A program made the position numbers and the translations under genes. The notes beneath the pieces were generated by a model. It was not told the origin of the DNA, did not search any database, and was given only the letters and a program-made list of their open reading frames with translations. A DNA stretch of 26,584 nt from a virus. Location: the IMG/VR virus record IMGVR_UViG_3300038701_002658, positions 1 to 26,584 of that record; one strand, 5' to 3'. Positions 59-16,047 of this stretch are shown piece after piece; position 1 is the stretch's first letter; the number at the start of each line of letters is the position of its first letter.

Positions 59-435
59 GCGATGAGCGAAAAGTCTTTAAAGCAGACCTATACGGGGTAC
101 CCAAAATGGATAAAGAGCTGACAAAAGCATATGTTTACCAGCCATTCCCGCCACGCGAAGACGGGCGGTTTTATGGTGTAGGTGGGTTAGAGAATTATGG
201 TTTAACTCATGAAGAAGCAGACATTAGAGGCATAACAAAAGATTGCGCTGAAGAAATCGTTAAGGTTTGCAATGATTTGCCTCACTTTGCGAAAGATTTC
301 ATAAGCAAAATTAGGCATGTTATCGACAACGATCGCAACGCGATTTTTGATTGTGGGTGCAGATTTACAAATGAATTTTCTAATTCTGTTTCGCTCTGCG
401 AAGAATGTAGCAAGCTGCCTTGCCACAACCGGTAA
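55..435 (+). CDS. Small hypothetical phage protein with C-terminal cysteine cluster
   Basis: This 126-residue protein is not recognised. The start used is a TTG that overlaps the upstream stop, with a weak purine-rich CAGGA before it. An ATG at 106 would give a product 17 residues shorter and cannot be excluded. The last 30 residues contain CGC, then CEEC, then one more Cys (about residues 100-123), which could bind zinc or form disulfides. The middle is acidic and mostly helical in composition. It is the first complete gene of the plus-strand operon; the next gene starts 26 bases downstream. No catalytic motif is seen. Confidence 0.6.
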   Translation: MSDERKVFKADLYGVPKMDKELTKAYVYQPFPPREDGRFYGVGGLENYGLTHEEADIRGITKDCAEEIVKVCNDLPHFAKDFISKIRHVIDNDRNAIFDCGCRFTNEFSNSVSLCEECSKLPCHNR

Positions 436-461
436 GGTCTGCAAAAAGACGGATTGAGACT

Positions 462-653
462 ATGAAAATAACAAAGAGCGAAACATTATACGCGGTTGCC
501 CTGCTAACAATTTTTCTAGCAAGTATGGGCGGGTGCGCTTACAGCATGGCGCAGCTATCTAAGAGAATACAAGATTCGGGCGGCATGAAAAATATAATCA
601 TTGAGGCTGGCAAAGAAGTTAAAGATATTGCCGAGCAAATCAACGAGAGCTAG
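462..653 (+). CDS. Small membrane-anchored or lipoprotein-like protein
   Basis: This is a 63-residue protein. The frame opens earlier at 420, but that start lies inside the preceding gene, so the ATG at 462 is preferred. Residues 8-22 form a hydrophobic segment (LYAVALLTIFLASMG) followed by Gly-Cys. This could be a lipoprotein signal with an imperfect lipobox (MGGC) or a plain N-terminal membrane anchor. The remaining 40 residues are charged and probably helical (QLSKRIQ, EAGKEVKDIAEQI). It is followed after 8 bases by a second tiny membrane protein, and the two may work together. Function is unknown; small phage membrane proteins of this shape are often lysis or superinfection-exclusion factors, but nothing here decides that. 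Confidence 0.55.
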   Translation: MKITKSETLYAVALLTIFLASMGGCAYSMAQLSKRIQDSGGMKNIIIEAGKEVKDIAEQINES

Positions 654-661
654 GAAAAACA

Positions 662-811
662 ATGGATAGAGAACAGGTATTCGCTTCGGTTTTTATTGCT
701 TTGATGATAGCCGGAGTCCTAGGGGTAATGATCCACGGGTACAACGCGTGCAATGGATCATATGTTAGAACTCTGCTTTGGTTTGAGTGTATAGAGGATG
801 CTAAACGATGA
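662..811 (+). CDS. 49-residue single-pass membrane protein
   Basis: An ATG at 662 preceded by AGGAAAAAC opens a 49-codon frame that ends in a TGA overlapping the next ATG (ATGA). Residues 6-25 are strongly hydrophobic (VFASVFIALMIAGVLGVM), predicting one membrane helix after a short N-terminus (MDREQ). The tail contains two Cys and ends in charged residues (CIEDAKR). The good ribosome-binding site, the stop-start overlap and the fit between neighbours support a real gene despite its size. Its function is unknown. Confidence 0.6.
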   Translation: MDREQVFASVFIALMIAGVLGVMIHGYNACNGSYVRTLLWFECIEDAKR

Positions 812-1128
812 CTGAACTAAAGCCCTGCCCTAATCCTGATTGTGGTGGCGACGATGATGTGCACCTGTCCCCCGGCGTGCGAGATCAATACACGCATGTC
901 TACTGCATGAGTTGCGAGATGTGCGGGCCGATGAATGACCCTACCGGAGCGAAGTGGAATGCTTTGCCAAGGGGTGACGCTTTCTGGTTAATTCAAGAGT
1001 TTGTTCGGCGCTTGGTTGTGCTTGGGCTCGCGAATAGATCGTTATGCATAGATCTAGCAACAAATGTTTTTATGGATTGGCAGGAGGGGAAAATCAAATT
1101 AGACGCCGGAGAGAAAGAAAATGTTTAG
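808..1128 (+). CDS. Lar-like zinc-ribbon protein
   Basis: This 106-residue protein begins KPCPNPDC and continues to YCMSCEMCGP and then KWNALPR. This is the layout of the Lar/restriction-alleviation-like family of small phage zinc ribbons (KPCPFCG, then C..CG, then WN.R). Visible ligands are C7, C12, C33, C36 and C39; the first pair is CX4C rather than the usual CX2C. In Rac prophage, Lar modulates the host type I restriction enzyme, but most family members have no tested role. The C-terminal half (from about residue 56) is extra and contains an amphipathic stretch. The start has GAGGA nine bases upstream and overlaps the preceding stop by four bases. Confidence 0.65.
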   Translation: MTELKPCPNPDCGGDDDVHLSPGVRDQYTHVYCMSCEMCGPMNDPTGAKWNALPRGDAFWLIQEFVRRLVVLGLANRSLCIDLATNVFMDWQEGKIKLDAGEKENV

Positions 1129-1432
1129 CAAAAAACACTGTGAATATGCAGCGAAGAAACTGGGGTTGCCAAATGACATCGAAATAATTACTTCAGGAAT
1201 TTCTGTTAGCGTTATTGATGAAGCTGAAGTGTTAGAAACGTTGGGCTTCGAAGGGGACGAAGAACAAGAAACGTCTACGCTAACTAACTGGCAAATTCTT
1301 AGCGCTATAACGGACGCCGAGAACAATATGCGTCTTCCCAAAGGCTGGGTTTTTGTTGGGATAAAGCAGCCTGGAGCCAAGAAGCTGAAATATGAAATTG
1401 TTGATTTCTCTGAATTTGAGGTGGGTGAATGA
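1121..1432 (+). CDS. Hypothetical acidic phage protein
   Basis: This 103-residue protein is not recognised. The start ATG has GGAGAG upstream and overlaps the previous gene by 8 bases, while its end overlaps the next start by 4, so it sits in a translationally coupled chain. The sequence is acidic in the middle (FEGDEEQE), with a C-terminal beta-like stretch (WVFVGIKQPGAKKLKYEIVDF). No signal peptide, membrane segment or motif is visible. Confidence 0.65.
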   Translation: MFSKKHCEYAAKKLGLPNDIEIITSGISVSVIDEAEVLETLGFEGDEEQETSTLTNWQILSAITDAENNMRLPKGWVFVGIKQPGAKKLKYEIVDFSEFEVGE

Positions 1433-1734
1433 TGGTAGCTGAACATGAATACTGTTTTCATTGTGGTTCGCCAGCACACACTGGGTATGAATGCAAAGCC
1501 CGTTCTGCGCCTAAACTAGAGCATAACAAGGCCATTAATGAATGCAAAGCCGCCAAAGCATGCGGGAAGCCAGGTATCAGCAAGCAGGAATGCAAAGATG
1601 CCGCTGTGCTGTTATATGAAACAGAATCAGAGCATGAGCCTGGGATAATTTGCCGAGGTTACGAATGCAAAATTTGTGGTTCTTTCAGTAGCGCTACAGG
1701 ATTAAAGGAAGAGCAAGATTATGGAACAAGGTAA
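1429..1734 (+). CDS. Small CCHC zinc-knuckle protein with repeated ECK motifs
   Basis: This is a 101-residue protein with nine cysteines. Residues 9-22 read CFHCGSPAHTGYEC, an exact CX2CX4HX4C zinc knuckle, the fold that binds single-stranded nucleic acid in retroviral nucleocapsid and some cellular proteins. The tripeptide ECK recurs four times, always encoded GAATGCAAA (bases 1489, 1540, 1588, 1663), and the C-terminus has a further C..C (CKICG). Two ATGs lie in tandem; GAGGTGGG precedes them. It overlaps the preceding gene by 4 bases and the following one by 14. Nucleic-acid binding is inferred from the motif; the biological role is unknown. Confidence 0.65.
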   Translation: MMVAEHEYCFHCGSPAHTGYECKARSAPKLEHNKAINECKAAKACGKPGISKQECKDAAVLLYETESEHEPGIICRGYECKICGSFSSATGLKEEQDYGTR

Positions 1735-2185
1735 ATACACACAAGGCGTTTGCGAAGATGGTGCCGCCATACTGGAAAACGGACAGCCAATAACAATCGA
1801 AGAAATATTGGAACGGCTTCGCTCTCTCGATGAGCTGAGCACAACAATGGGCACGTTAACCACTCTGTTAACAGGCGTTGCCAACGCAGTAAAGGGTGAA
1901 CCACCCGAATTAACCCAACACAGCTGGCATGACCTCCCACAAATTTGCAGAGATATGGTCAAGCCTGTATTCGTCAGCAGGCCAAATAAGGAAGGCTTTG
2001 TCAGTGTGCCTACTGAACGCAACGCCACTGAAAAAGCAGTGCTGATCGGCGAGCACAAGCTGGTTGTGGAAATGTACGACCCCGAGGAAGAAGATCATTA
2101 CTTACAAGAGTACACCGTGCCTTGGACTCTACAAAAAGACATTATTCGCGACTTTATAGCGATATATAATGAAGGCGAGAAATGA
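1721..2185 (+). CDS. Hypothetical phage protein
   Basis: This 154-residue protein is not recognised. AAGGAAGAG sits about eight bases before the ATG, within the end of the preceding gene. The N-terminal third looks helical (ITIEEILERLRSLDEL, then TLLTGVANAVKG), and the C-terminal half is rich in acidic and aromatic residues. It carries no cysteine cluster, unlike its neighbours, and no membrane segment. It overlaps the next start by four bases (ATGA). Confidence 0.65.
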   Translation: MEQGKYTQGVCEDGAAILENGQPITIEEILERLRSLDELSTTMGTLTTLLTGVANAVKGEPPELTQHSWHDLPQICRDMVKPVFVSRPNKEGFVSVPTERNATEKAVLIGEHKLVVEMYDPEEEDHYLQEYTVPWTLQKDIIRDFIAIYNEGEK

Positions 2186-2553
2186 CCACCAAATACAAGC
2201 ATTCAAAGGATGTTCCGACTAGCGCCCTTGTTGCTCGACTTCGGGAACTGTCTGACGCTGTGACGAAGCGAGAATCACAAGAGCACGAATTTACAATGCG
2301 AGTACCAGCGGAGGCTGACCGAGACGCCGACTTGGTTCTGTCTGAAGCTGCAAACAGGCTCGAACAAAAACAAGGCTTTGTCAGCAACGAGCCTTTCGCA
2401 TGGGCTTACGTGTCGGAAGGGCCTGATGGCAAACAACTGATTGATATTGGGCTAAATAGGTCGGGCTTTTTGAAAGAGCACCCTAACAATTATATCGGAA
2501 ACCCAATTGAAGAAATTCCGCTATTTGCAGGACAAAAGCCGTCAGGTACTTAG
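2182..2553 (+). CDS. Hypothetical phage protein
   Basis: This 123-residue protein starts with an ATGA overlap and has AAGGCGAG upstream. The N-terminus is helical (SALVARLRELSDAV, LSEAANRLEQ), and the C-terminus reads EPFAWAYVSE and later EEIPLFAG. That pattern is seen at the ends of many small phage proteins of unknown function (a WA-containing strand and a terminal PL-aromatic motif). It is the last gene of the first block of the operon; a gap of about 120 bases follows. Confidence 0.6.
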   Translation: MTTKYKHSKDVPTSALVARLRELSDAVTKRESQEHEFTMRVPAEADRDADLVLSEAANRLEQKQGFVSNEPFAWAYVSEGPDGKQLIDIGLNRSGFLKEHPNNYIGNPIEEIPLFAGQKPSGT

Positions 2554-2674
2554 TACCGCTTTAAGCACTTAGCAGAATATGGAAACCGGCAAAAAGTAGG
2601 CGCTTTTTTTCAGAGTACATAGAAAGCCGAAAGATCTACAAACGTGAACGGAATTAATGCTAGGAGATTTATCA
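2554..2674 (+). other. Intergenic gap with weak terminator-like sequence
   Basis: This is the longest gap in the plus-strand operon. Around 2590-2615 an A-rich run (CAAAAAG) is followed by TAGGCG and then CTTTTTTT, which can form only an A-T-rich stem before a T run, so any terminator here is weak. AGGAG at 2662-2666 serves the next gene. No clear promoter is seen. Confidence 0.25.
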
Positions 2675-2968
2675 ATGAGTGGCGGAAGCATGGATTATTT
2701 GTGTTACAAGGTTTCAGATGCAGAGTTCCGAGAAAGCACCCCGGAGCGAAAAGCATTCAGGGCGCATTTAGAAAAAGTATCGAAAGCTTTACACGACATT
2801 GAGTGGGTGGATTCTGGCGACTGTAGCCCAGGCGATGAAAACGAAGCCATACGAGATTGCATCGGTCAACCTGCTGTCCTCGCACAACTTATCGAAGATT
2901 CAAGAAACCTGATTGAGAAAATGCAGGTTGAAATATCAAAGCACGAACAAGAACAAGAGGAAAAATAA
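2675..2968 (+). CDS. Conserved phage protein of the GGSMDYL type
   Basis: This is a 97-residue protein. The frame also opens at an ATG at 2657, but AGGAG lies eight bases before the ATG at 2675, so that start (MSGGSMDYLCYKV) is chosen. Conserved-looking features are the N-terminal GGSMDYL, then TPERKAFRAHLEKVSKALHDIEWVDSGD, then a long C-terminal helix (AQLIEDSRNLIEKMQVEI). From memory this matches a widespread phage family with no known function. The gene starts a second block of the operon and is followed one base later by a zinc-finger gene. Confidence 0.7.
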   Translation: MSGGSMDYLCYKVSDAEFRESTPERKAFRAHLEKVSKALHDIEWVDSGDCSPGDENEAIRDCIGQPAVLAQLIEDSRNLIEKMQVEISKHEQEQEEK

Positions 2969-2969
2969 C

Positions 2970-3215
2970 ATGTCAACCAATTGCGATTTTTGCGGCAAAC
3001 CAAACACCATTACCGGCCCACTGGTCAACAACGGCCCCGGCAACGTTCACATCTGCTATCCGTGTACCTTCATGGTCGTTGCCACCCATGTAGTAAATAC
3101 ATCCACCCCCATTGAGAAAGTCTCTGAACTTGTGGTGTCGGAGTGTAAAAAAATTCATGATCGGGTAGAACAGGCCGCGGAAAAAGAGCCCAAACCGGAA
3201 GAAGCGGAGGTGTAA
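2970..3215 (+). CDS. Stand-alone ClpX-type C4 zinc-finger protein
   Basis: This is an 81-residue protein. The ATG at 2970 is chosen over an earlier in-frame start because AGAGGA lies about eight bases upstream and the earlier start lies inside the previous gene. Residues 5-32 read CDFCGK, a glycine-rich link with GP, then HICYPC. That is CX2C-X20-CX2C, close to the N-terminal zinc-binding domain of ClpX (CSFCGK...GPSVYICDEC). No AAA+ domain follows, only a short helix and an acidic Pro/Glu tail. In ClpX this domain dimerises and docks adaptors and substrates. A role as mimic or decoy is inference; it could also be a generic small zinc finger. Confidence 0.65.
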   Translation: MSTNCDFCGKPNTITGPLVNNGPGNVHICYPCTFMVVATHVVNTSTPIEKVSELVVSECKKIHDRVEQAAEKEPKPEEAEV

Positions 3216-3216
3216 G

Positions 3217-3477
3217 GTGAACGTCGATGTTCCTGTACGTGAATTTGATTATGATCTGCTGGCTCGAAAGATCGCCGCGCAACAAAATAAAATGAATCCA
3301 AACGCGCTGTGGTCTATTGCCGATATCTGCAATTACCTGAACAAGAAGAAAAGCTCCGTGTATGACCTAGTAGATCAGCCTGGTTTCCCCGGATCGGTTT
3401 CTCCTGGTGGTGGACGCAGACAATGGATTGCGGGTGATGTCATGAAATGGGCAACTGGGAAAAGGCCAAGAGGTTAA
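3217..3477 (+). CDS. AlpA/excisionase-like helix-turn-helix protein
   Basis: This is an 86-residue protein with a GTG start and GGAGG six bases upstream. Residues 31-80 look like a winged helix-turn-helix of the AlpA/MerR type: ALWSIADICNYLNKKKSSVYDLV, then FPGSVSPGGGRRQW, then GDVMKWA. Phages use such proteins as excisionases or transcription regulators. Its place one gene away from the integrase, near the candidate attachment region, makes a recombination directionality factor plausible, but a regulator of the small-gene operon is equally possible. The first 30 residues are an extra polar segment. Confidence 0.7.
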   Translation: MNVDVPVREFDYDLLARKIAAQQNKMNPNALWSIADICNYLNKKKSSVYDLVDQPGFPGSVSPGGGRRQWIAGDVMKWATGKRPRG

Positions 3478-3510
3478 TTTTGTCTATAAACCGGACAGTT
3501 AACGGGGCGC

Positions 3511-3798
3511 ATGAAAATGGCTAAAAGATACAGAGCGCCGAAGTGTATCGAAGGCGAAATCAAGTTTCAAAAAGGCAAAGTAGATGGTGATATTGATATG
3601 TGCATCTTCTACGGTGGTGACGTGCCTAGATGTGACCAGGCGCTAGTTATAAACGCACTTTGTAGCGAGAGACAATACACGAATCTTTCGACGATGCGGC
3701 CCGCTTTTGAACGCTCATTAATTGATGAATTAGAAGCTCGCGGCTATGACCTCGAAACACTCAGGTTTTCTATTAAGCGAAAAACCGGCAAGCACTAA
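3511..3798 (+). CDS. Conserved hypothetical phage protein
   Basis: This is a 95-residue protein starting MKMAKRYRAPK; an ATG two codons later is an alternative start. Visible blocks are EIKFQKGKVDGDIDMCIFYGGDVPRCDQAL and ELEARGYDLETLRFSIKRK. The protein is basic at both ends. I recall similar sequences in phage genomes without an assigned role. It is the last plus-strand gene before the convergent integrase gene, only 25 bases away, with no terminator between them. Confidence 0.65.
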   Translation: MKMAKRYRAPKCIEGEIKFQKGKVDGDIDMCIFYGGDVPRCDQALVINALCSERQYTNLSTMRPAFERSLIDELEARGYDLETLRFSIKRKTGKH

Positions 3799-3823
3799 AG
3801 ACTGCTAAAAGACGATAGCCCCA

Positions 3824-4792
3824 CTAATCCAACCTAGCGGCCAATTCATCCGCTGTAGCATTGTAATAGCGCTGCAGCATTTTGATATCCCTATGCCCTA
3901 CCATGCGCGCCAGCTCCAACACATTGAGCTTACTGGCCAGTCGCGTGATGGCTTCGTGCCTGGTGTCGTGAAAAGTCAGGTCTTCGATATCGGTTTTATT
4001 TCTGGCCTTCCGGAACAATGTGCTTAACTGCTCGCCAGTCATATCAAAAAGCTTTTTTTGATCGAGTAGCTCCAACAATTCAAGCGCCCTTTTCGACAAC
4101 GGCACCTGACGTGCTGTTCCATTTTTGGTCATAGGTAGGTTAGCAACCCTGCCTTGAATATCCCCAGGCTTTAGGCCGCAAATCTCCCCTGCTCTCATGG
4201 CTGTTTCAATGGCGAACAAGAAAGCAACGGCAACGCGCTGAGATTTCGTTGAAGGCGACGATTCTTCGAAAAAACCCAAAGCTATGCAAAGCTTGTCGAT
4301 CTCTTCCTGGCTTATTCTTCGATCCCTGGCTGGCGGCGATCTGGGGCGCGAGATATCAGAAAGAGGGTTTGACTCAAGCCACCCCCACTCTTTTCTAGCC
4401 ACTTCAAAAGCATGGTGGAGGATATTCATTTCTCTTTGGACTGATGCCGGTGAAACCTGCTTTAAGCGCTCATCCCGCCACAACGCCCAGTCAGCCGGTT
4501 TCATCTCGATCAATTTAAGATCGGCAACAGAATCTCGCCCAAGCCTCTCAAGTCTCACCTGCTCATTGCGGCCGGTGCGTTTGGTGCTGGAGACTTCCTC
4601 GGAATACCTGGTAAATATGTTCCGCACTGTCCGGTTTGGGTCCACCCCCGCCTTGGCATTTGCCAGGCTAACCTCCATTTCGGCAGCCCAGGCTTTCGCC
4701 TCTTTCTGGGATTTGAAGCGCTTAGCCTTTCGCTTCCCAGCAACATATACCTCAGCTTTATACCCTGTTTCAGTCTTCCGAATGCTTGCCAC
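3824..4792 (-). CDS. int: Tyrosine site-specific integrase
   Basis: This 322-residue tyrosine recombinase integrates and excises the phage. The N-terminus (about 1-55) is an arm-binding-type domain (GYKAEVYVAGKRKAKRFKSQKEA), followed by a SAM-like core-binding domain (about 55-150). The catalytic domain holds R200 (AMRAGEICGL), K223 (TKNGTARQVPL), H275 and R278 (HDTRH), H300 (GHRDI) and the nucleophile Tyr, most likely Y309 of QRYYN. All expected residues are present, so it should be active. The start is a GTG with AGGA very close upstream, suggesting modest translation. Repeated TGTCGTAA elements lie directly before the gene, so binding of Int there may repress its own promoter. Confidence 0.95.
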   Translation of the reverse strand: MASIRKTETGYKAEVYVAGKRKAKRFKSQKEAKAWAAEMEVSLANAKAGVDPNRTVRNIFTRYSEEVSSTKRTGRNEQVRLERLGRDSVADLKLIEMKPADWALWRDERLKQVSPASVQREMNILHHAFEVARKEWGWLESNPLSDISRPRSPPARDRRISQEEIDKLCIALGFFEESSPSTKSQRVAVAFLFAIETAMRAGEICGLKPGDIQGRVANLPMTKNGTARQVPLSKRALELLELLDQKKLFDMTGEQLSTLFRKARNKTDIEDLTFHDTRHEAITRLASKLNVLELARMVGHRDIKMLQRYYNATADELAARLD

Positions 4793-5228
4793 TTTCCTGC
4801 ACCTGTCGTAATGCTGGCGTAAATTTGTCGTAACAGCGTAGCAGATAACTGGATTCTATTGGAGAGTGCTGGAATATCGGGAGAGGCTAAAAAGGTCTTC
4901 AGGGCCTGATTGGCGGGGGCTTTAGACTTGTTTGGAGCTTTCTGGATTTCGTTGGAATTTAGTACGTGGTGCCTAGAAGAGGCATAGATATAGCTTTATA
5001 TATCAGTAGATTAGATCGGTTTGTCGTAACCTTGTCGGAAGACCTGAGTTCAGTTCCCGGGGCCGGAAAAACCACCCCTTTTAATATCAATGCCTTATAG
5101 TAATTTGGTGCAAGCATGGTGCATGCATCGACGATCCATTCAATTTCCTGCTTGGAAACCAAGCCTATTTTTTTACCCCTCCTTGTCTCTATCTACGAAG
5201 GTGCATTTTTAATCCATTTGGGCCTTCT
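4793..5228. other. Candidate phage attachment region (attP), otherwise non-coding
   Basis: This stretch upstream of the integrase has no convincing gene. It carries the TGTCGTAA repeats near both ends of 4804-5040 and an AT-rich segment between them (about 4975-5015). A GC-rich patch (about 5041-5090) contains GAGTTCAGTTCCCGGGGCCGG, which superficially recalls a tRNA T-arm but does not fold as one. The position between the last tail gene and int is where attP lies in a lambda-type vegetative map. The core sequence cannot be fixed without a host junction. A minus-strand frame (4959-5162, TTG start) is open here, but no usable ribosome-binding site is close enough. Confidence 0.45.
4804..5040. 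repeat. TGTCGTAA direct repeats, candidate integrase arm sites
   Basis: TGTCGTAA occurs at 4804-4811, 4826-4833 and 5022-5029, all in the same orientation. The last two extend to an identical 11-mer, TTTGTCGTAAC, at 4824-4834 and 5020-5030. A degenerate copy (TGTCGGAA) follows at 5033-5040. Spaced direct repeats flanking a central segment beside an integrase gene are typical of arm-type Int binding sites. Confidence 0.55.
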
Positions 5229-5262
5229 GGTCGCTGCCACTGATCCGGCAGCGGCCTTTCTT
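5229..5262 (+). terminator. Strong intrinsic terminator (plus strand)
   Basis: A 10-bp stem (5229-5238 with 5247-5256, one G-U pair, otherwise perfect and GC-rich) encloses an 8-base loop and is followed by TTTCTT. It would stop plus-strand transcription coming from the left, through the region antisense to int, before the lipoprotein gene. Confidence 0.7.
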
Positions 5263-5640: not shown

Positions 5641-7050
5641 CTAAGCTGCGCTAAAGTCTAGTAAAGTCGCCGTTTTGGTGGTGGGTCCGGCGGTAACTTT
5701 AATCATTATGTCCCCATCGTCGCCGCTGCCGGTGCCGTCGCTCATCCAGATTACAAACTCGCCCTCGCTCGGGTCTGATGGGTTGCTTGATCGCTCAAGC
5801 CCTGCCAGTTGCTGACCTTTTATTTCCCCCGCCGCGCTAACATTTCCGTCTTGATCGAGGGTCATCACTTCGACGGGAGAAGGTGTCGCGCCCGACGTAT
5901 CGGGGGTCGTGAAAAACGCTAGGCCCATACCGGAGGCAGTATCTACACTATACGCCTGTGTCGCGTAGCCAAGAATTCCGGCTAAAAATTTTGGGTTAGT
6001 TGTTGTGAAGGAGGTATCCGTAGATCCGAATTTCAGGCCAGGGGTATATTTAGAGGTTACATTCATCCCACCAGCGGTAAGGAAAACCCCTGGCGTACTT
6101 TGTGAAACGCTGGTCGCCCCACTATCAGTATTATCTATATGGATTTCGTTTGCCGTACCGCTGGCGTTTATGCTGCCCGTAACATTAACATCCCCGCCGA
6201 AATTAGCATTACCGGTGCTTTGGTTAAAATCAACGTCGCCCCTCGCCCTCAAAATGTGCTGGTTAGTGTTGGTATTGTCGGCGGTTTTGATAGATAGCGA
6301 AGAGTTCGCGCTCCCGTCAGTATTCCGAAAAAGCGTTAGCTCTCCGATGTTTGCTGAAGTGATGTCGGGGAAATCGAATTTTAACTGGGTGTAGTCATCC
6401 GTACCGCCATCAGAAACGTACACCGCGGCGTTACTGTTAAAAGTTTGAGCCCCCTCGAGCGTGTAATTGCCGTTTTTATCGAATGTATGTTTCGGGCTGC
6501 TCGTACCGTCGGCCCCATAAAAAATAACATCGGCGTCGCCACTGGTATCCGTCGCACGGTTAATTCTAACGGTACCGCTGGCGGTCGATATGGTGTCGAA
6601 ATCGAAATCGATAAACCGGTTATCCGCGTTACTCGCGGTGTTCGTAAAGTGACTGGTCGTGCCGTTGGCGATATTAATATCCCCGACCGTTACCGAGGTA
6701 AAGCTGGCCGCGGCACCGTTGTAAACCGCGCTATCCAAAATGTTTAAGGCCCGACTTAATATCTCAGGGGTTCCCAAGTCGCCAGAATTAAGCAGCGGCA
6801 AGGAAAGGTTTGCGGTGAAATCATTCGTAAATAGCCCAGTAAACGTGCCGCTTGTGCCGGCGTAATTGCCGGTGAGAGTTACCGACGTATCGGCAACAAT
6901 GCTCGCGACTTCATATACCGAAGGGTAGGAGCCAGGAGTGTTTTCGTCGCTACGCTTAAAATAGCTGCCGACAACTATGCCGCTTGTGTCGCTTAATGTT
7001 ACTACTGCGCTGCCGTTGGTAGCCGTTACGCTGATTTGTTTTTGTGCCAT
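5641..7050 (-). CDS. Tail fibre or tail-associated surface protein
   Basis: This is a 469-residue protein, last gene of the late operon. The N-terminal 80 residues are a compact beta domain (ISVTATNGSAVVTLSDTSGIVVGSYF...). The rest is rich in Gly, Ser, Thr, Asp and Asn, with beta-helix-like stretches typical of trimeric fibres (NANFGGDVNVTGSINASG). The C-terminus (GEFVIWMSDGTGSGDDGDI, then TATLLDFSAA) looks like the end module of other fibre proteins. No peptidase S74 chaperone or enzyme motif is seen. It overlaps the preceding coiled-coil gene by 25 bases. A role in host contact beside the giant tip protein is inferred from position and composition. Confidence 0.75.
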   Translation of the reverse strand: MAQKQISVTATNGSAVVTLSDTSGIVVGSYFKRSDENTPGSYPSVYEVASIVADTSVTLTGNYAGTSGTFTGLFTNDFTANLSLPLLNSGDLGTPEILSRALNILDSAVYNGAAASFTSVTVGDINIANGTTSHFTNTASNADNRFIDFDFDTISTASGTVRINRATDTSGDADVIFYGADGTSSPKHTFDKNGNYTLEGAQTFNSNAAVYVSDGGTDDYTQLKFDFPDITSANIGELTLFRNTDGSANSSLSIKTADNTNTNQHILRARGDVDFNQSTGNANFGGDVNVTGSINASGTANEIHIDNTDSGATSVSQSTPGVFLTAGGMNVTSKYTPGLKFGSTDTSFTTTNPKFLAGILGYATQAYSVDTASGMGLAFFTTPDTSGATPSPVEVMTLDQDGNVSAAGEIKGQQLAGLERSSNPSDPSEGEFVIWMSDGTGSGDDGDIMIKVTAGPTTKTATLLDFSAA

Positions 7051-7331
7051 TGTTCTTCTCTCTCATGTGCAGCAGCAAGTTCATTTTTTAGCTGATCGTT
7101 CTCGGCCCGTAGCCCTACCAGATCACCACGCAGCTCTTCGCGCCTGGCTCTGTTTTTAGCGCACTGACTTTCTGCTTCTGCAATCCGCTCTTTGAGTTGC
7201 GCCGCAAGCTCATCAGCTGTTGCAAGCCTGCGCTCAGCATCTAGCCTAAGGTCGCGCTCAAGCCTGTATGCAGTTTCAAGCTTTTTAGTTTTGCTTTGCA
7301 TTGCCGGGTCTTCTTCGTTTTTGTTGCTCAT
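7026..7331 (-). CDS. Small coiled-coil protein of the tail-tip region
   Basis: This is a 101-residue, highly charged protein that is almost entirely predicted coiled coil (about residues 12-95; KKLETAYRLERDLRLDAERRL, ELRAENDQLKNELAAAHE). It overlaps the end of the giant tip gene by 47 bases and the fibre start by 25, so translation is probably coupled. The start is uncertain: an ATG ten codons later (7301) would shorten the first overlap, and neither has a strong ribosome-binding site. A structural or assembly role between tip and fibre is plausible; no family is recognised. Confidence 0.6.
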   Translation of the reverse strand: MSNKNEEDPAMQSKTKKLETAYRLERDLRLDAERRLATADELAAQLKERIAEAESQCAKNRARREELRGDLVGLRAENDQLKNELAAAHEREEQWHKNKSA

Positions 7332-10300
7332 GTTGTATCCATAGCGCGAAACGCTCGTCTAGTTTGAGTGGCCTGCCTATTTTTACTCTTTCGGGCTGAA
7401 CGAAATCACGCTCAAATATCTGAGAATCGTGCATTGGGCTTTCAACCTCGAAACCATCTGTGGCGCCATCTTGTCGAGTACCAACAATCAACAATTTGTA
7501 TTCGCCATCCTGATCGCTCGTGATTGTGATCTGGTTACCAGAAACCTCAGCAAACGCTCGCCCAAAATGCTTATCGGCCTGAATAAAAATATCAATGTCT
7601 TTGTTCAGTGGTGCAAACCAGTCAGGCATCTCGAGAACTGCAGTATTGCCGATCGTTGTAACCGATCGCCGATATACGTTTGCACCGCCCACATCAGATT
7701 CAACAACCGAATGTCTTAGCCAGTGGTCGGGCTTTGTTGGGTGAGGGATCTTAAAGTTTTTCGTGCCGTTAACATCGAGCGTACCCGCTATGTAGACATC
7801 GTCAGAGCTACCGCCGAGCGCAATTTCGTTGGCCGCAGAACTCGATACCCCGTTACCGATAGCGATCGCTCGGGTATACGCTGCCGCGCTGGCGTGTCCG
7901 AGCGCGTTAGAATTAACTCCGGTAGCATCGGCGTGCTGCCCCAATGCCGTTGACTGGGAAGCGGTTGCCGTGGTGTTCTGCCCAATAGAGCACGAAGCTT
8001 GCCCGGTTGCCGTGGCATTGTATCCAATGGCAGTGCCTTCGCTATTGCCCCCAGTAGTCCCGCTTTCTGCTTCTGCGCCAATCGAAGTACAATAATTTTT
8101 GCGAGCAATGGCCCCTGAACCAAAAGCAGATGCCCCAGATCCAGAGCATGTTGCCTGGTTTCCGATGGCCACTGTATCCGCTGACGTTGCTGCCGCCCCG
8201 TAACCGATAGCTGTATTGGTAGTTGCTCCAACCGAAGCCCCATAACCAATGGCTACACTAAAAGAGGAAGTGGCTAGAGCGTTGTAGCCAATAGCCACGC
8301 TGGACGTGGCAGACGCATCAGCAAGCTTACCTATAGCAACAGAATACGTTGCAGACGCATCAGCAGAAGACCCAAACGCAATAGAGTTAGAACCGACGCT
8401 TGCACCAGAACCGATGGCATCTAACTGCATAATCAGGGAAGACCCTGACCATTTCAGATAATTACTTGAATCACCAATGTGAAATTTATAGGTGCCAGAG
8501 TCGTCACCCATCCAGATGCCAGCAGTCGTGCTTGCGTAGCTCGGCTTATTTAATTCTATGTCACCCGTTAACGATAAATTGCCCGAAGCGTCCAGGTTGA
8601 AATTCGTCGTTGTGCCGTTCCAATATTTCAACCCGCTGGCGTTTAACTCGACTCTCCACCCGCTCAACGCGGTTTTGATTGTTTTGCCCACCATTTCACC
8701 GGCAATCAGCGAACCGGGAACCGTGACATTTCCAGATGTATCCCAACTGATAGCGCCACTGCTACCCAAAAACCCCGAGCCATCAACGGCAATCAAAAAC
8801 GTCCTATCACCGCTCGCGTTCTCGCCGTACAGCCCGCCCGTATCCATCTGGACTTTCGCCGTGGCGTTAGCTGTCCGGATAATCAGACCCTCGATGAGCC
8901 CAGCTGTAATCGTGCCAAGATTGGCTGTTATCGAGCTTAGAGTAGTTACATTGAGTTTGTCTGCTGTAATCGTGCCCGCCAATAACCTGGCTGCTGCCAG
9001 ATAGCCCGTTGTAATCTTGCTGGCGTCCAGCGCTTCAATGATCGCGTTCGTTATCGAGGCGTTTTCGAAAAAATCCCCAACCGTAGAATCGGTAATCTTA
9101 AACGGAGTAACTGGGCCTACTGCTGCGCTCTCGTCGCTCTCATTCCCGCTAACGTCGATTGTTTTCGTCTTGTAATAGTACGCCGTGCCGTTGGTTACGT
9201 TAGCGTCGATAATTTCGGAATCGGTACCGGCCCCGCCGGGAAATGTGGTAATCAGATTGCCGCCGCTTGGCGTAAAGCCTGAGCTTGTGCCCCTGTATAC
9301 TTTAACCGCTGCAAAATCAGTGTCGCCAGGATTCGTGTAGGCAAGGATAACTTTATCAAGTCCAGCGGTAGCAGTTAACCCTGTCACGTTAGCGGGGGCT
9401 GTGGTATCACCATCAGCCAACTGCGTCTCTGTGGCTGTCCATCCTGACAGATTAGAGGCCCAGTCAACTGCCTGCACTCTGACCGAATAGGTGCGCCCTG
9501 GTACTGCGTCCGTGATTCTGAATGATTCCACATTCGAAAAAGTTTGTATCTTTGTGCTGTCTACATCATCCCAATGCTCAACAAAGTAACCCGTTAAGAT
9601 CCCGTCATCAGTTGATGCATCCCAGGTCGCCGAAATAAAAGCTTTGGTATAAAGCCCGTTATCCTCGACGCCTGTTGTCAATACTAAATTGCTGGGATCC
9701 GTGGGTGGAGTGTCGTCCATGTCGGCGCTGGTTAACGCGCCAGTGTTAAACGTCTGCTCGCCAGAAGCATCCCCAGGGCCAAACGCATCATAAGGCACAT
9801 ATTGATAGTAATATGTTTGCCCTGCATTTAGATCGCCCACCATAATCGTTGTGTCGGGGCCATCCACCACCAGAGTGGACTCATTGAGAGTAAACCCGCT
9901 CGATGCAGACATGTAGACCCGGATACCGATCCAATCGGGATCGGTCGGTTTGTTGTAGGTTGCGTTGAAAAAATTATAGCCCGGTGCGGTTTGAATGGCG
10001 GGAATTTCGGGTGCGGGGTTTTGTACGGTTAACTCTGCAGGTGTTCTTGATGTTTTATTCTGCCGGGTTCTCTGAACAACGTTAATAGTAAACTGACGCA
10101 GAGCAGTCGTGTCGCCCAACTGAATGGAATCTTCTAAGTTTTTTTCGAAGGTATAAACATACATAGGATCCACAACGTGTTCGGTACGCCGCAACGTAGA
10201 ACCGTCATAGATTTTTACTTCGTAATCTAAAAAATGCAGATCAGTTGCGCCTTGGCCCAACCCTTGAGCCGGTGTTTCTGAGCCAGGATCGACCCAGGAC

Positions 10301-13300
10301 GATAGCGACGACTTGCGCCAAACAAACTTGGCGTCTTTGCCAGTAAAATCGGTATCATTGCCCTGCTCAAAAAGCTCTAACCCGGTAATGTTGAGCGCTG
10401 ATAGATAATCAGTGTCATCGATAGCACCGTCAACGTGTGATAGTTCAATGATTTGCGTTGGCCCGCTCGGTGAAAGCTCACCGGATTTTGAAACAGAACG
10501 CGCCCTGAACTCATAGGTGTTGCCATCGCTGGACAACACAACAAAAGCCTGGGGTTCAGCGGGGCCAACTTCAAACCACCCGATATCACCCTGTAGTCTG
10601 TATTCAATGTGGGCGTGTGAATAATTGGTATCTGATGGCGGGTCAACGGTCACCACGACGGTTGAAAGATTCGCCGCTGGTGTTGGTGGTGTGTTTATTT
10701 GCTCTACCAGTGACAGTGAAAGCACATCATCAGCGGTGCCGGTGACATCTGGGTTTAACGTGGCCTCTGGCGTAATGAAAAACGAACGAACCGCCACCCC
10801 ATTGTCTGAAAGCGTCATGTCAAAACCGCTTTTATCATCCCGAATAAAGTGGTCAATCTCGGCACTGATGCCGCTCGGGTATTGTGATGGCGAGCTATAG
10901 CGAATCGATGCAACCGCGTCACCTGATGTAATGGTGTCACCCACCGCTGCATTCACATGGCCCACCATGTCAGGCATGTTGGCGGTATATCCATCTAGGG
11001 CAATGACTACCGCCCCAGGTGATCCACCGGCGCCACCACCAGACCAAAGTGTTAAGCCAGAATAAAGCCAGCTCGAACCGGCTGAACCGTCAACGCCAGA
11101 ACAATCAATTAACGCACTACCGCCCATGGCCATGCCCCGGCAAACAATTGCCAAACCTGCGCCACCCGCACCACCATCACCGCCGGTGGCTTGGGGGTTC
11201 CAGTCAGAATCATGGCTGGTGCCCCCAAAAGAGCCGGCGCTGCCACGCAAATCATCAGGGAAACCTTGCACTGCGCTATTTTTTGAGTGCAAGTTAAGAC
11301 TGGGAACACCATGATTAGCCGCTTCGGTGGTCTTTTGGTACTCGGCGTACCGGGCTTCAATGAATCCACTGGTGTCAGAAACCCTGGTTCCCTGTTGAGA
11401 GAACAAAGCGGGGCCAATGTATCCAGTGGTACCAAAGTCGCTGGGGTAGGATCCGCCAGCATAGCCTTTACCCTTGCCGTATAGCTCGCCGTTGCAGGTC
11501 AGCGTGCCTTTGACGCGCAACTGAACATTGTTGTTGTAGGTGACACGAACACCCGCATCAATAATACAATCCCCATCAACGTAATAGATGGCTGATGCGC
11601 CGTTGATGCTGCTACCGCCCGCCAGATTGATGTCAGCGGTAATAGTAACAATCCCACCTGATTCGCTGGTTTGACTAGGAAAAGCGGTTTCAATGTTAGT
11701 GCCTTCTGATATGTAGTAGCTATCGGGCAACAACCCTGGCTCAGGTGGTAGCGGTGAAGCGTCCAAGGTGGATCCAAACAAATTTAAATCGACCCGACCA
11801 CGCACCCAATCCACTGACGCCCGCTGAACTTCAAAAGATCGGTTCAGAGTTGACGTGCCCGAAAAGTCACGCAACTGGGTTAAATCAGCCTTTACGATGT
11901 CACCCACTTCAATGGTGTTACCGCTGGGCAATACGGAAACTGACAGGCGAACAGGTGGCCCTGCAAATCGATCACGATAGGCATCAAAGTGTGTCTTTAA
12001 TGCGTCATAACTGTGGGCGGATCCATGCAACCCGCGAAACTTTAAACGCTTCAGCGGGGCATTGCCGTGAACATCAATACTGTTCTGATCCAGTAGCGCA
12101 TTTTTACGGGTATAAGCCCGCCGCTGGTGGTTCCAGTTCCATTCAATCAGAATGCGGTTGGCAACTGATTTCATATCATGCTTAAGCGCAGAATAACTGG
12201 TTATATTTGTTTCATTTAGGTTGGCCACATAACTCGCGCCGGATAAAACGCCGGTCATACGCTTAAGGCCCAAGGCGCCATCAGAGTGAACCGGTGAAAA
12301 AGCACCTAAAAACAAATAAATCTGTTCTTCAATGAATTGTTTACCATCAGTTTTTTCTAAACCCTCAAAGCGCACCTGGCGCCCTTTTTCATCATCACTT
12401 TGGTCGTACCAGTCCGAACCCACCAAGGTGAAATCAGTCAAACGCACATAGCTGGCATCTATGCCAAGATGCCAGTGGTCTGGCAGTGTTTCGCCAGCTT
12501 GCTGGTTTAGATTGCCTGTTAAAAGCGCGTAGGCCAGTTTAACCGCTGGCATTTCAAGGTAGATAAACTCTGTGACCTGAACGCCGTTTTCTTCGTTTGA
12601 GCCTTTGAGTTCCCAGCGTTTTTTCCGTGTACCCAGAACACCACGCGTCAGGTTTGAGAATTCAGTGGCAGTGGTTGCGGTATAACGCACGATTTCAAAA
12701 TCATCGCTAGTGCCTATGCGCAAATAGCCGACTTTTATGTTGGGCGCATCTGAATAGCTGGGGCCATGATCAACCCGTTCAAAGCCTTCAGTTCGATAAA
12801 CCGTGGCCGCTGTTGCGTCTTCTTCCAATGTTGCGCTTAAGGCGGTTTTCTTCGGTTCAAAAATGTCCTCGCGCATTTGTCGCTGAACATCCATACACTG
12901 AATTTTATAACTGCCAGAATCATTCACTACCTGTTCAATCAGCTGCGTTTGTAGCAGTGTGTAATCATCAAACGTGGTCAGCTCATCGAATCCCATATAA
13001 AACCGGCATCGCTTATGCCTTAAGCCTTTATCGTTGGAAAGCTTAGTTCTGAAAAGGGTTGTAATGTCGCCCGCCAGGTCAACCATTTCAAAAGAAATTG
13101 CACCAATGGTGGCGTTGGCTTTCTGCGGGTTGATGCTTTGGCTGGTGCCTGACAGGTTTTTAACAACACCCGAATGAACCACAGCACCAGATGGTGTCAG
13201 CGCGTCAGTGTGGCTAGTAAAGTGAACAAGGTCACCGGAAGCAAACTCAATTTCAACAACAAAAAAGGGGCGCTTAATGCGCCCCTGGTTTATCGTGCTG

Positions 13301-13323
13301 AACTCGTCGTTGTCGTATCTCAT
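7285..13323 (-). CDS. Giant tail-tip and receptor-binding protein with YadA-like head repeats
   Basis: This is a 2012-residue multidomain protein. Approximate order: 1-525, tail-tip/hub region (VVEIEFASGDLVHFTSH, a VDWVRGRVDLNLFG end) in the position of lambda gpJ. 530-830, beta and glycine-rich region (GGDGGAGGAG near 725, SGGGAGGSPGA near 765). 875-960, 1105-1200, 1205-1305 and 1308-1405, fibronectin-III-like domains (TPPTDPSNLVL, TAPANVTGLTA, TAYYYKTK). About 1415-1485, a gpJ-type ITADKLNVTTL segment. About 1635-1840, fourteen SVAIG-type repeats, mostly of 14 residues, as in the YadA head beta-roll. About 1850-1960, a terminal domain (GTKNFKIPHPTKPDHWLRHS). It probably forms a trimer at the tail tip and contacts the host surface. 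Its start overlaps the preceding gene by four bases. Confidence 0.85.
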   Translation of the reverse strand: MRYDNDEFSTINQGRIKRPFFVVEIEFASGDLVHFTSHTDALTPSGAVVHSGVVKNLSGTSQSINPQKANATIGAISFEMVDLAGDITTLFRTKLSNDKGLRHKRCRFYMGFDELTTFDDYTLLQTQLIEQVVNDSGSYKIQCMDVQRQMREDIFEPKKTALSATLEEDATAATVYRTEGFERVDHGPSYSDAPNIKVGYLRIGTSDDFEIVRYTATTATEFSNLTRGVLGTRKKRWELKGSNEENGVQVTEFIYLEMPAVKLAYALLTGNLNQQAGETLPDHWHLGIDASYVRLTDFTLVGSDWYDQSDDEKGRQVRFEGLEKTDGKQFIEEQIYLFLGAFSPVHSDGALGLKRMTGVLSGASYVANLNETNITSYSALKHDMKSVANRILIEWNWNHQRRAYTRKNALLDQNSIDVHGNAPLKRLKFRGLHGSAHSYDALKTHFDAYRDRFAGPPVRLSVSVLPSGNTIEVGDIVKADLTQLRDFSGTSTLNRSFEVQRASVDWVRGRVDLNLFGSTLDASPLPPEPGLLPDSYYISEGTNIETAFPSQTSESGGIVTITADINLAGGSSINGASAIYYVDGDCIIDAGVRVTYNNNVQLRVKGTLTCNGELYGKGKGYAGGSYPSDFGTTGYIGPALFSQQGTRVSDTSGFIEARYAEYQKTTEAANHGVPSLNLHSKNSAVQGFPDDLRGSAGSFGGTSHDSDWNPQATGGDGGAGGAGLAIVCRGMAMGGSALIDCSGVDGSAGSSWLYSGLTLWSGGGAGGSPGAVVIALDGYTANMPDMVGHVNAAVGDTITSGDAVASIRYSSPSQYPSGISAEIDHFIRDDKSGFDMTLSDNGVAVRSFFITPEATLNPDVTGTADDVLSLSLVEQINTPPTPAANLSTVVVTVDPPSDTNYSHAHIEYRLQGDIGWFEVGPAEPQAFVVLSSDGNTYEFRARSVSKSGELSPSGPTQIIELSHVDGAIDDTDYLSALNITGLELFEQGNDTDFTGKDAKFVWRKSSLSSWVDPGSETPAQGLGQGATDLHFLDYEVKIYDGSTLRRTEHVVDPMYVYTFEKNLEDSIQLGDTTALRQFTINVVQRTRQNKTSRTPAELTVQNPAPEIPAIQTAPGYNFFNATYNKPTDPDWIGIRVYMSASSGFTLNESTLVVDGPDTTIMVGDLNAGQTYYYQYVPYDAFGPGDASGEQTFNTGALTSADMDDTPPTDPSNLVLTTGVEDNGLYTKAFISATWDASTDDGILTGYFVEHWDDVDSTKIQTFSNVESFRITDAVPGRTYSVRVQAVDWASNLSGWTATETQLADGDTTAPANVTGLTATAGLDKVILAYTNPGDTDFAAVKVYRGTSSGFTPSGGNLITTFPGGAGTDSEIIDANVTNGTAYYYKTKTIDVSGNESDESAAVGPVTPFKITDSTVGDFFENASITNAIIEALDASKITTGYLAAARLLAGTITADKLNVTTLSSITANLGTITAGLIEGLIIRTANATAKVQMDTGGLYGENASGDRTFLIAVDGSGFLGSSGAISWDTSGNVTVPGSLIAGEMVGKTIKTALSGWRVELNASGLKYWNGTTTNFNLDASGNLSLTGDIELNKPSYASTTAGIWMGDDSGTYKFHIGDSSNYLKWSGSSLIMQLDAIGSGASVGSNSIAFGSSADASATYSVAIGKLADASATSSVAIGYNALATSSFSVAIGYGASVGATTNTAIGYGAAATSADTVAIGNQATCSGSGASAFGSGAIARKNYCTSIGAEAESGTTGGNSEGTAIGYNATATGQASCSIGQNTTATASQSTALGQHADATGVNSNALGHASAAAYTRAIAIGNGVSSSAANEIALGGSSDDVYIAGTLDVNGTKNFKIPHPTKPDHWLRHSVVESDVGGANVYRRSVTTIGNTAVLEMPDWFAPLNKDIDIFIQADKHFGRAFAEVSGNQITITSDQDGEYKLLIVGTRQDGATDGFEVESPMHDSQIFERDFVQPERVKIGRPLKLDERFALWIQHEQQKRRRPGNAKQN
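8309..8365. repeat. 15-bp direct repeat inside the YadA-like region
   Basis: GCAGACGCATCAGCA occurs at 8309-8323 and 8351-8365, 42 bases apart. That is exactly three codon-level units of 14 bases, or one 14-residue protein repeat. It shows a recent duplication of a repeat unit within the giant tip gene. Confidence 0.7.
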
Positions 13324-13655
13324 TTAGCTAGATCTGCCCGCACCTGGTTTTTGCTTACGTTTAACCTGTAATTGTTGTAAATCCACCAAATCGCCTTTTC
13401 TGGGTTTAATCCATGCTTGATCGACACCTTGTAGGCTCTCACTTCAGCCCAGTATCTAAACTCTGAATTGGTGAGATACTTAAAAAGCCATCTCAGCTGC
13501 CCTTTTTCTTTTTGCTCTTTAAGGTGCAACTTTTCGTGCTCGATCAACCAAGACGTGTTTTCCCAACCCTTCCGGACATAGATGTGCGGATAAATGGTTA
13601 TGGCTAACGCATCAGAAAAACGTTTAAAAGTTTTTTCCTCAATCACTTTAATCAT
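13320..13655 (-). CDS. Putative zinc metallopeptidase (HExxH) of the tail module
   Basis: This is a 111-residue protein with H40-E41-K-L-H44 (WLIEHEKLHLKEQ) and a downstream E71 in YWAEVRAYK. This is the arrangement of gluzincin-type peptidases: two His plus Glu binding zinc, with E41 catalytic. The residues between (GQLRWLFKYL) match the small phage HExxH proteins found in tail modules. It has no signal peptide. It lies between a minor tail protein and the giant tip protein, sharing one base with the first and four with the second, so it is made together with tail-tip parts. Processing of a tail protein or of a host envelope component is possible; neither is shown. Confidence 0.65.
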   Translation of the reverse strand: MIKVIEEKTFKRFSDALAITIYPHIYVRKGWENTSWLIEHEKLHLKEQKEKGQLRWLFKYLTNSEFRYWAEVRAYKVSIKHGLNPEKAIWWIYNNYRLNVSKNQVRADLAK

Positions 13656-14056
13656 TATTCAATGATCCGAATTGCAAATTGATATGTCCAAAGATCGATG
13701 GAGCCCAGCCTAGAGGGCGCATGGCTTTGGGATGTCAAAACACCGGTTTTGGGGTCATCCGGTGAGGCAATAGAACCGAAAGCATCAAAGGTGATATATT
13801 GCCCATCGATGGCGCTGGCTAGAAATTCGCGCACAGCATCACGCTCGGTGTTGTTAAGCGGAACCGTCAAACAGTTAAAGGTTTCATCAAGGCGATTAAA
13901 GTTGGTCTCAGTAGCGCCACCCAATGCAACGTGTGTAACCGCATTGACAACGTCGCCCGGCAATACTTCCGCCAGATCCACATCAATAGTGTATTGCGTG
14001 CTTGCTGTGTGCCCCGTGATCAGGCGGCGTTTCGCAATGTAGGTTACTGCAGCCAT
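13655..14056 (-). CDS. Minor tail protein
   Basis: This is a 133-residue protein directly downstream of the tape measure gene, with a one-base overlap there and another with the metallopeptidase gene. It reads as a compact beta-sandwich protein (MAAVTYIAKRRLITGHTASTQYT..., then DGQYITFDAFG, then SIDLWTYQFAIRIIE). Size and position fit the minor or distal tail proteins (lambda gpM region) that join tape measure and tail tip. The exact family is not certain. Confidence 0.7.
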   Translation of the reverse strand: MAAVTYIAKRRLITGHTASTQYTIDVDLAEVLPGDVVNAVTHVALGGATETNFNRLDETFNCLTVPLNNTERDAVREFLASAIDGQYITFDAFGSIASPDDPKTGVLTSQSHAPSRLGSIDLWTYQFAIRIIE

Positions 14057-16047
14057 TAAGCGGCCCCTGCTATCTGTTGCCCGTTTCGACTGGTGGTTTC
14101 AATCAAAACATGGTCACCGTCATTAATAAGCCCTTTGAATTCATCAAACAGCTTTTCGGCGTCATTCCCAACAATATCGCCGTTTACAATAATTGTTGTA
14201 CCTGCTTTTTGTTGCTCTGGTTTTTGAATTGGAGTTACTTGCTGAACCTGCGGATTAGACACATTGCCACCGGTACCAACTGCTGTAGGCGCTGCACCTG
14301 CCCCGCCCCCGCCAAATGATTGGGCCTTTATCGCTTTAACACGCTGCAAACCAGCTGCCAGATGCAGCCCAGCCATGATTCCCGCCAAAGGCCAAGGGTA
14401 GGATTCTAATGATTTAGCAACACCCGCATGAGTACTGATAACAGCATTGGAAATAGCCGCGACTTTGTTGATTTTAAACATCGTCTTGGAGTGCTGGGCG
14501 ACCCCTTGGGTCAATGTGCCCATTTCACCCATAACCTGAGCGGTCTGATCTTTGGTGGATTTGGCGGTGAACTTTTGCCGCGCCGTCCAACCTTTCTGCT
14601 CAATCGCTGTTAGCTTGGTCTGATGTTTTTGTGCCGTCATGGCGACGAGCTCGTTAAAGCGCTCGTCATCAATGAGTTTGAGATCGCGGTTTTGCTTTAT
14701 TACTTCGAGCCGCCTCATATAAGCGGCTTGCTCTTTCCCTTGCTCATCAAGCAAATAGGTTTCGACGTTAACGAGCTTCTTGGCGAGGTCTTCTTTCTGT
14801 TTGATGATCTCGGGAGAATCGCCGGTATTGCCTCCCCCGCCGGTACCACCGCCACCGCCCGAGTTCGCGGCAACTTCGGAGACTTTGTTCAGGTTCATAA
14901 CGAACGCATCTATCTGATCACTGGGCAGCGCTTGCATTGCCAAGTTATGCAGCTCGGCTCGAAGCGTTGAAACATCATTGCGCGCACGCTCGCCCAGATT
15001 GCTTAGGCCTTTCATGAATCCAGAATCGCTAACGGTATCGACCAAAGCGATATCAGCAACGCCGGGGATTCTGTTGAACTGCTCTATCGCAAAATTCAGC
15101 TTCGCAATAATTACGTTATCGATGATGAACGCCATCGACTTGGCGGTAGCTTCAAAAAGAGAGATAACGGCAGCGTTAAAACCAGCAGCGACTAAGTTCA
15201 ATCCTTTCCATGCAATTCGCAAGCCTTGTAGAGCATCAGCCACAAAGCCCACGCCCTTTAGGATGCCGTTAAAAACCTTTTCAGCAACCTGGCCCATGCC
15301 CCCTGCATCGATGGCCGCCTGCTCGAAATAGTCGCCGATCTTCTGGAGCGTTGGGGCAAACTTCGCGGCAAGCTTCGAGGTGAACGCGCTAAATCTGGCT
15401 TGTGAGATTTTAATAGTTTCTGAAAGCTTCGCGAGCTGGCCGACCTCGATCTCAGTTAACGCCAGACCGAGCTGGTCGGCTCTTTTCGCTTGTTCCTCAA
15501 ATGCTGCCCCGCCGTCTCGTAACAACGGTATAAGAGCCGTCGAATCGCTCGCTATCTCTTCCATGTACGAGGTCATTTCGGCTTGGCTAAGGTTCGCCTG
15601 CTCTAACGCGTTGTAATACTTTTGTAGAACTTGGTCACCTGAAAGGTTTTGAAAAGCGTTGGCCGTTAGCCCAACTTTCGGCGCGATCTCGGTAAAAAAC
15701 CGATCCATAGGGCCGGATCCGCTGCCGATGAACTCGCCCATTTTCTCAGTTGAGTCTTTTAGGATATCCGCGTATTTTTCTTGGGAGATATTTACCGAAT
15801 GGAGGGCGGGCGCCAAATGCTGAAAGCGTTCGATGGCCGTATTACCGACCTGCGCAAGCGACCTTAATTCGACAGCGCCGTCTGCCGCATTTTTTGCAAT
15901 CAATGCCAAGCCGCCAACGCTGATACCACCGAACAAAGCGGAAACTTTAGAGACGTGGCCCCCAATCTTGTTGAGGCTCGAGCGAACCGAGGTAAACGCT
16001 TTTTTCGTTTTATCGGACGCACTTATGATAAATTTTGCGTTACTCAT
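14056..16047 (-). CDS. Tail tape measure protein
   Basis: This is a 663-residue protein that sets tail length and is carried inside the tail tube. The N-terminus is helical (SDKTKKAFTSVRSSLNKIGG), followed by long helical stretches, hydrophobic segments around residues 270-330, a glycine-rich linker near 395-405 (GGGGGTGGGGN), a helical region, a second hydrophobic segment near 545-565 (SYPWPLAGIMAGLHLAAGLQ) and a C-terminal domain (GTTIIVNGDIVG). At the roughly 0.15 nm per residue known for siphophages, tail length would be near 100 nm. Position after the G/GT chaperones and before the tip genes fits. The start overlaps the end of the GT frame by eight bases. Confidence 0.9.
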   Translation of the reverse strand: MSNAKFIISASDKTKKAFTSVRSSLNKIGGHVSKVSALFGGISVGGLALIAKNAADGAVELRSLAQVGNTAIERFQHLAPALHSVNISQEKYADILKDSTEKMGEFIGSGSGPMDRFFTEIAPKVGLTANAFQNLSGDQVLQKYYNALEQANLSQAEMTSYMEEIASDSTALIPLLRDGGAAFEEQAKRADQLGLALTEIEVGQLAKLSETIKISQARFSAFTSKLAAKFAPTLQKIGDYFEQAAIDAGGMGQVAEKVFNGILKGVGFVADALQGLRIAWKGLNLVAAGFNAAVISLFEATAKSMAFIIDNVIIAKLNFAIEQFNRIPGVADIALVDTVSDSGFMKGLSNLGERARNDVSTLRAELHNLAMQALPSDQIDAFVMNLNKVSEVAANSGGGGGTGGGGNTGDSPEIIKQKEDLAKKLVNVETYLLDEQGKEQAAYMRRLEVIKQNRDLKLIDDERFNELVAMTAQKHQTKLTAIEQKGWTARQKFTAKSTKDQTAQVMGEMGTLTQGVAQHSKTMFKINKVAAISNAVISTHAGVAKSLESYPWPLAGIMAGLHLAAGLQRVKAIKAQSFGGGGAGAAPTAVGTGGNVSNPQVQQVTPIQKPEQQKAGTTIIVNGDIVGNDAEKLFDEFKGLINDGDHVLIETTSRNGQQIAGAA

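Follow-up and report, generated by a model that had tools for sequence, protein, structure and literature searches.

Genome context and organisation of the tail-tip gene

The window, meaning the whole stretch of DNA analysed here, is a virus record of 26,584 bases (IMGVR_UViG_3300038701_002658) without a host genome. It encodes a terminase, a portal, a protease, decoration and major head proteins, head closure and tail terminator proteins, a minor tail protein, a tape measure protein and an integrase. As this gene set combines head and tail genes with an integrase, the record likely represents a temperate siphophage-like virus. The hub gene is situated downstream of the tape measure gene, from which it is separated by two small genes (Table 1). 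A homologue of the 133-aa product was found just before the hub in nine of the first ten relative records examined and was not seen in L011. The HEKLH motif of the 111-aa product corresponds to the HExxH pattern of zinc peptidases and the protein weakly matched phrog_15610, annotated as 'protease' (4e-4); a search of Pfam with the same protein yielded no match. The second fibre-like protein likely consists of a conserved anchor with a variable remainder, as judged from sequence comparison.

Table 1. Position of the tail-tip gene, its domains and its neighbours in the window.
Feature	Position	Strand	Basis or remark
Tail tape measure protein	14056..16047	-	phrog_9483, E=7.5e-93
Tail protein, 133 aa, encoded between tape measure and hub	13655..14056	-	Homologues in hub-relative records
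HEKLH-motif protein, 111 aa, immediately upstream of hub	13320..13655	-	64% identical copy near L228 hub
Whole tail-tip protein, 2012 aa	7285..13323	-	One open frame, no stop; residue r starts at 13323-3(r-1)
Hub, residues 1-560	11644..13323	-	Conserved in 65/65 complete relatives; AlphaFold and Foldseek
Glycine-rich domain, residues about 561-800	10924..11643	-	Family core; similarity in 49-65/65 relatives over 550-799
Fibronectin-III-like arm, residues about 870-1410	9094..10716	-	Pfam fn3; 71% identity to L228
gpJ-type linker, residues 1411-1639, 'DASKITTGYLAAARLLAGTITADKLN...'	8407..9093	-	phrog_1330 tail protein, 1421-1632, E=5e-8
YadA-type head of fourteen units, residues 1640-1845	7789..8406	-	Pfam and PDB matches, model, Foldseek
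C-terminal cap domain, residues 1846-1940 ('KNFKIPHP...')	7504..7788	-	phrog_17490; viral-contig relatives; model
Second fibre-like protein	5641..7050	-	In four relative records the sequence just behind the hub is matched by residues 45-107

An earlier note on this DNA described a single protein of 2012 residues, and the open frame on the minus strand was confirmed. The glycine-rich region which it named is present and belongs to the part conserved across the hub family. Its count of about four fibronectin-like domains held in part: one domain was matched strongly by Pfam fn3 (residues 1230-1287, E=9.4e-8), the further fn3-like matches were weak and below threshold, and about five fibronectin-like stretches were discerned in the arm by eye.

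Predicted fold of the hub

Sequence searches of Pfam, PHROGs and the PDB with residues 1-560 returned no match, and the profiles of the lambda gpJ family (phrog_31 and PF13550) did not match this region, although they match L228, a contig discussed below. A single-chain AlphaFold model of residues 1-560, built from an alignment of ten sequences (the window protein and nine relatives from viral contigs), was obtained with a pLDDT of 77 and a pTM of 0.78. The best PDB matches found by Foldseek were to chain b of the T5 tail tip (E 3.9e-17 and 9.2e-16), followed by DT57C, hubs of contractile systems and of the gp27 type, the lambda tail tip (2.6e-8), gp18 of a Listeria prophage (4.1e-8) and MuSo2 hub proteins. 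TM-scores were moderate (0.51-0.55, with an rmsd of about 10), as expected for a multi-domain hub. Residues 1-560 are thus predicted to adopt the fold of a siphophage tail-tip hub, nearest to pb3 of T5. With the tape measure gene two small genes away, this agrees with the tail hub in gpJ position that had been proposed from the sequence.

The window protein resembles T5 pb3 in its predicted hub fold, its place after the tape measure and its fibronectin-like domains, features also found in lambda gpJ and in hubs of the Tal/gp27 type, but has no sequence relation to pb3 detectable in Pfam, PHROGs or the PDB. In T5 the fibre and receptor-binding functions are served by the separate proteins pb4 and pb5 (PMC7291167), whereas hub, arm and tip form a single chain in the window protein.

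The YadA-type head and the terminal cap

Fourteen SVAIG-type units were counted within residues 1647-1845, starting at residues 1647, 1661, 1675, 1689, 1703, 1717, 1731, 1745, 1763, 1777, 1791, 1805, 1819 and 1833; the spacing is exactly 14 in 12 of the 13 intervals and 18 in the remaining one. Identity at an offset of 14 across residues 1641-1840 was 0.333, compared with 0.123 ± 0.023 for composition shuffles and a maximum of 0.204 over 5000 shuffles, which bears out the fourteen repeats, mostly of 14 residues, recorded previously. The search against the YadA head family that had been proposed as a check was positive, with Pfam YadA_head (PF05658) matching at E=1.7e-14 (54.2 bits against a cut-off of 25). 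Sequence matches in the PDB to residues 1640-1847 comprised YadA (1p9h, 3.4e-7), 3s6l (1.6e-5), BpaC (7o23, 1.7e-5) and EibD (2xqh, 1.5e-4).

A single-chain model of the tip, residues 1620-1950, had a pLDDT of 81 and a pTM of 0.57 and displayed a short strand for every 14 residues through the head; it depends in part on the sequence assignment, because its alignment of 15 rows included other YadA heads. A separate alignment containing long head rows, in which MAFFT set heads against the cap, was discarded. High-probability Foldseek matches were to the heads of trimeric adhesins, namely BpaC (7o23, 3.7e-8) and BoaA (5e-4), followed by CbpF, AtaA, EibD and YadA. A prediction without a beta-roll had been named as grounds for refutation; the single-chain model contains one, with its strands 14 residues apart. 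Together, sequence and model support the reading of residues 1640-1845 as a YadA-type beta-roll head with one turn per 14 residues in the single chain. Profile, sequence matches to solved heads, predicted fold and gene position all agree with the proposed fusion of a tail hub to such a head.

The same head was not found in a second contig, the only comparable case being a Tal-type hub at 29% identity. A tblastn search of phage records with the head yielded no match, but was uninformative as low-complexity filtering was on. A scan of viral contigs for a triple-VAIG pattern located 40 stretches, mostly in separate fibres or autotransporters and none on this hub.

The exact DNA repeat at 8309/8351, 15 bp in length, had been taken as a sign that the number of repeats is changing. 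In a null model encoding the same protein, with synonymous codons drawn at the phage's usage, an exact repeat of at least 15 bp occurred in 5% of draws and in 2.6% at offset 42, and the overall identity at an offset of 42 nt (0.422) equalled that of the null (0.411 ± 0.013). As a sign of recent repeat turnover the DNA match was rejected on these grounds; it arises because two peptide repeats are similar.

The cap that follows the head appears in the tip model as a confident beta domain. Relatives were detected at a minimum of 249 viral loci with an alignment as query, compared with none when the cap region was used as a lone protein query. In 77 loci the cap motif is situated 83-186 residues from the C-terminus, mostly 100-160, and in the window protein 157. 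Fibres bearing the cap include gp19 of Arthrobacter phage Mufasa8 and a tail fibre of Prochlorococcus phage P-SSM2. With a loose pattern, many YadA-like motifs were found in only a few of the fetched cap examples (15 in L105, six in L122 and in L124); a stricter paired pattern, which lacked a positive control, found none in these examples.

Hub relatives and exchange of arms and tips

A profile search with the hub yielded 134 viral relatives, of which 80 were kept, and a further 13 in genomes or MAGs, where the genera represented include Marinobacter (with M. algicola), Microbulbifer and Hahella; the ten-sequence alignment was used for the search of genome contigs. The 65 complete relatives range from 887 to 2323 aa (median 1428). 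Similarity to residues 1-650 extends to all 65 and none shows similarity beyond residue 1600; the fibronectin arm is common to about a quarter. When the last 180 residues of 59 non-redundant proteins, the window protein included, were compared, 26 tip classes were obtained. YadA repeats were absent from all 65 complete proteins by a regular expression that gave 7 hits on the window as positive control, and PF05658 was not found in 10 whole records of hub relatives. Arms and tips of other relatives contain laminin-G-like, PKD and collagen domains and a near-threshold carbohydrate-binding domain.

Pairwise comparison of relatives revealed abrupt losses of similarity. L012 and L013 are 96% identical to about residue 1399 and 39% thereafter, and L196 and L207 are about 90% identical over about 900 residues, beyond which identity drops to about 30%. 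Between L012 and L018 the difference is an arm insertion of 119 residues, preceding a tip that is otherwise 96% identical; arm length therefore varies in the hub family, though not in YadA repeats. The tip of the window protein is apparently one among numerous exchangeable ends that this conserved hub can bear.

Internal replacement within the arm was also observed: the first 1050 residues of L189 are about 98% identical to those of both L187 and L221, beyond which a replaced stretch precedes near-identical ends. In a single Microbulbifer variabilis genome, the contigs L147 and L148 encode one hub of the family apiece; the two hubs are 83% identical and perhaps belong to two related prophages.

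The arm of the window protein recurs on a hub of another kind. L228 encodes, at 266-5239, a lambda-J-type hub (phrog_31, E=2.7e-96; PF13550, FNIII-A_GpJ) without BLAST similarity to the hub of the window. Residues 905-1571 of the window protein are 71% identical to its arm, rising to 88-96% within 1196-1395, and the same small gene lies nearby (Table 1). The two thus share an arm and a small gene but not a hub, and the tip is absent from L228, which is cut off at window residue 1571. That arm and tip constitute a portable cassette, transferred together among hub families that are unrelated (predicted T5-pb3-like and lambda-J-type), is a plausible but tentative reading of this comparison.

Comparison with known systems

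YadA-type domains in phage fibres have precedents. In 2014 a YadA domain was reported at the C-terminus of a pelagiphage tail fibre (PMC3909814), a structural protein with a YadA domain was found by mass spectrometry in particles of cyanophage S-SZBM1 (PMC9146016), and a YadA-domain protein of S-TIM4 was mutated in all populations adapting to hosts (PMC6224464). Like the window protein, these tail fibres and structural proteins carry a YadA-type domain for which a role in adhesion was proposed; they come from T7-like and T4-like phages, whereas the head described here is covalently joined to a siphophage hub.

A Tal-type hub, a YadA_head and a Peptidase_S74 domain occur together in proteins of four viral contigs, a layout that was established with profiles in L034 and by eye in L023, L057 and L240; L023, L034 and L057 are close copies. 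As in the window, hub and C-terminal YadA-type head lie in one chain, but the hub is of the Prophage_tail kind, the proteins are shorter, a fibronectin arm was not seen, and an S74 chaperone domain takes the place of the cap. The novelty of the observation was overstated, since YadA-domain fibres had been published and Tal-type hubs in the viral contigs carry such heads. In the open-access literature, no paper was found that names a YadA head on a siphophage hub. A conserved hub with a variable tip is itself an established principle. Receptor specificity in lambda and some Drexlerviridae is determined, or probably determined, by the C-terminal portions of GpJ-like proteins (PMC8594841).

The heads of YadA, BpaC, BoaA, AtaA and CbpF share with the window protein the 14-residue repeat, the profile and the predicted single-chain fold. 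YadA-type autotransporters differ from it in that the window protein is without signal peptide, stalk and anchor, is built on a phage hub and carries a phage fibre cap after the head.

Proposed architecture and alternative explanations

The known hubs of this kind form trimers, as do the known YadA heads. In the architecture we favour, the hub and the glycine-rich domain would seal the tail tube at its end, the fibronectin-III-like arm and gpJ-type linker would extend from it, and the C-terminus would comprise the beta-roll head of fourteen 14-residue turns followed by the small beta cap. Since hubs and heads of these kinds are trimers, three chains are proposed to form one central fibre, with head and cap in contact with the host surface. 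We infer trimeric assembly, a location in the virion and receptor contact for the window protein. A receptor role of the tip is probable, because of its position and by analogy with the precedents above. On the whole, it appears probable that the protein serves a temperate siphophage-like virus as its tail-tip hub, forming one central fibre with a swappable, receptor-contacting YadA-type tip.

Contact with the receptor could reside instead in the cap or in the product of the second fibre gene, with the YadA-type head acting as a stiff trimeric rod or spacer. Phage fibres lacking clear YadA repeats commonly carry this cap as their terminal domain, no folded domain follows it in the window protein, and the second fibre gene contains a stretch conserved in records of hub relatives. 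In solved adhesins, however, YadA-type heads are binding modules, as with CbpF in complex with CEACAM (structure titles), and the spacer role is considered unlikely. An assembly error that fused the hub with part of some unrelated adhesin is a far weaker prospect. The fusion is known from one metagenomic contig, and a search for a second contig with the same head-arm junction found none; yet the frame is open throughout, the linker just ahead of the head (residues 1539-1659) has a relative in L230, the cap next to the head is typical of phage fibres rather than of autotransporters, and hub-YadA proteins are present in the four Tal-type contigs.

The head repeats match the trimeric autotransporter adhesin family, which raises the question of a prophage-borne adhesin working on the surface of the lysogen. 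Neither YadA_anchor nor YadA_stalk gave a Pfam match up to E=1 in the window protein, whereas the autotransporter-like L036 does match YadA_stalk. The N-terminus, MRYDNDEFSTINQGRIKRPFF, has no hydrophobic signal-like stretch as judged by eye, and the first 560 residues model as a tail hub. With both anchor and stalk missing, identity as an autotransporter was rejected, and such a function is extremely improbable.

The window protein shows a head of bacterial-adhesin type covalently borne by a phage tail hub, in a hub family with at least 26 tip classes and with an arm shared by two hub types without detectable sequence relation. The natural swaps mark boundaries of tail-tip exchange, which helps to predict host range from phage sequence. 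If arm and tip do move as a cassette, the YadA-type head would fit different tail machines, and host recognition could switch in one natural recombination step.
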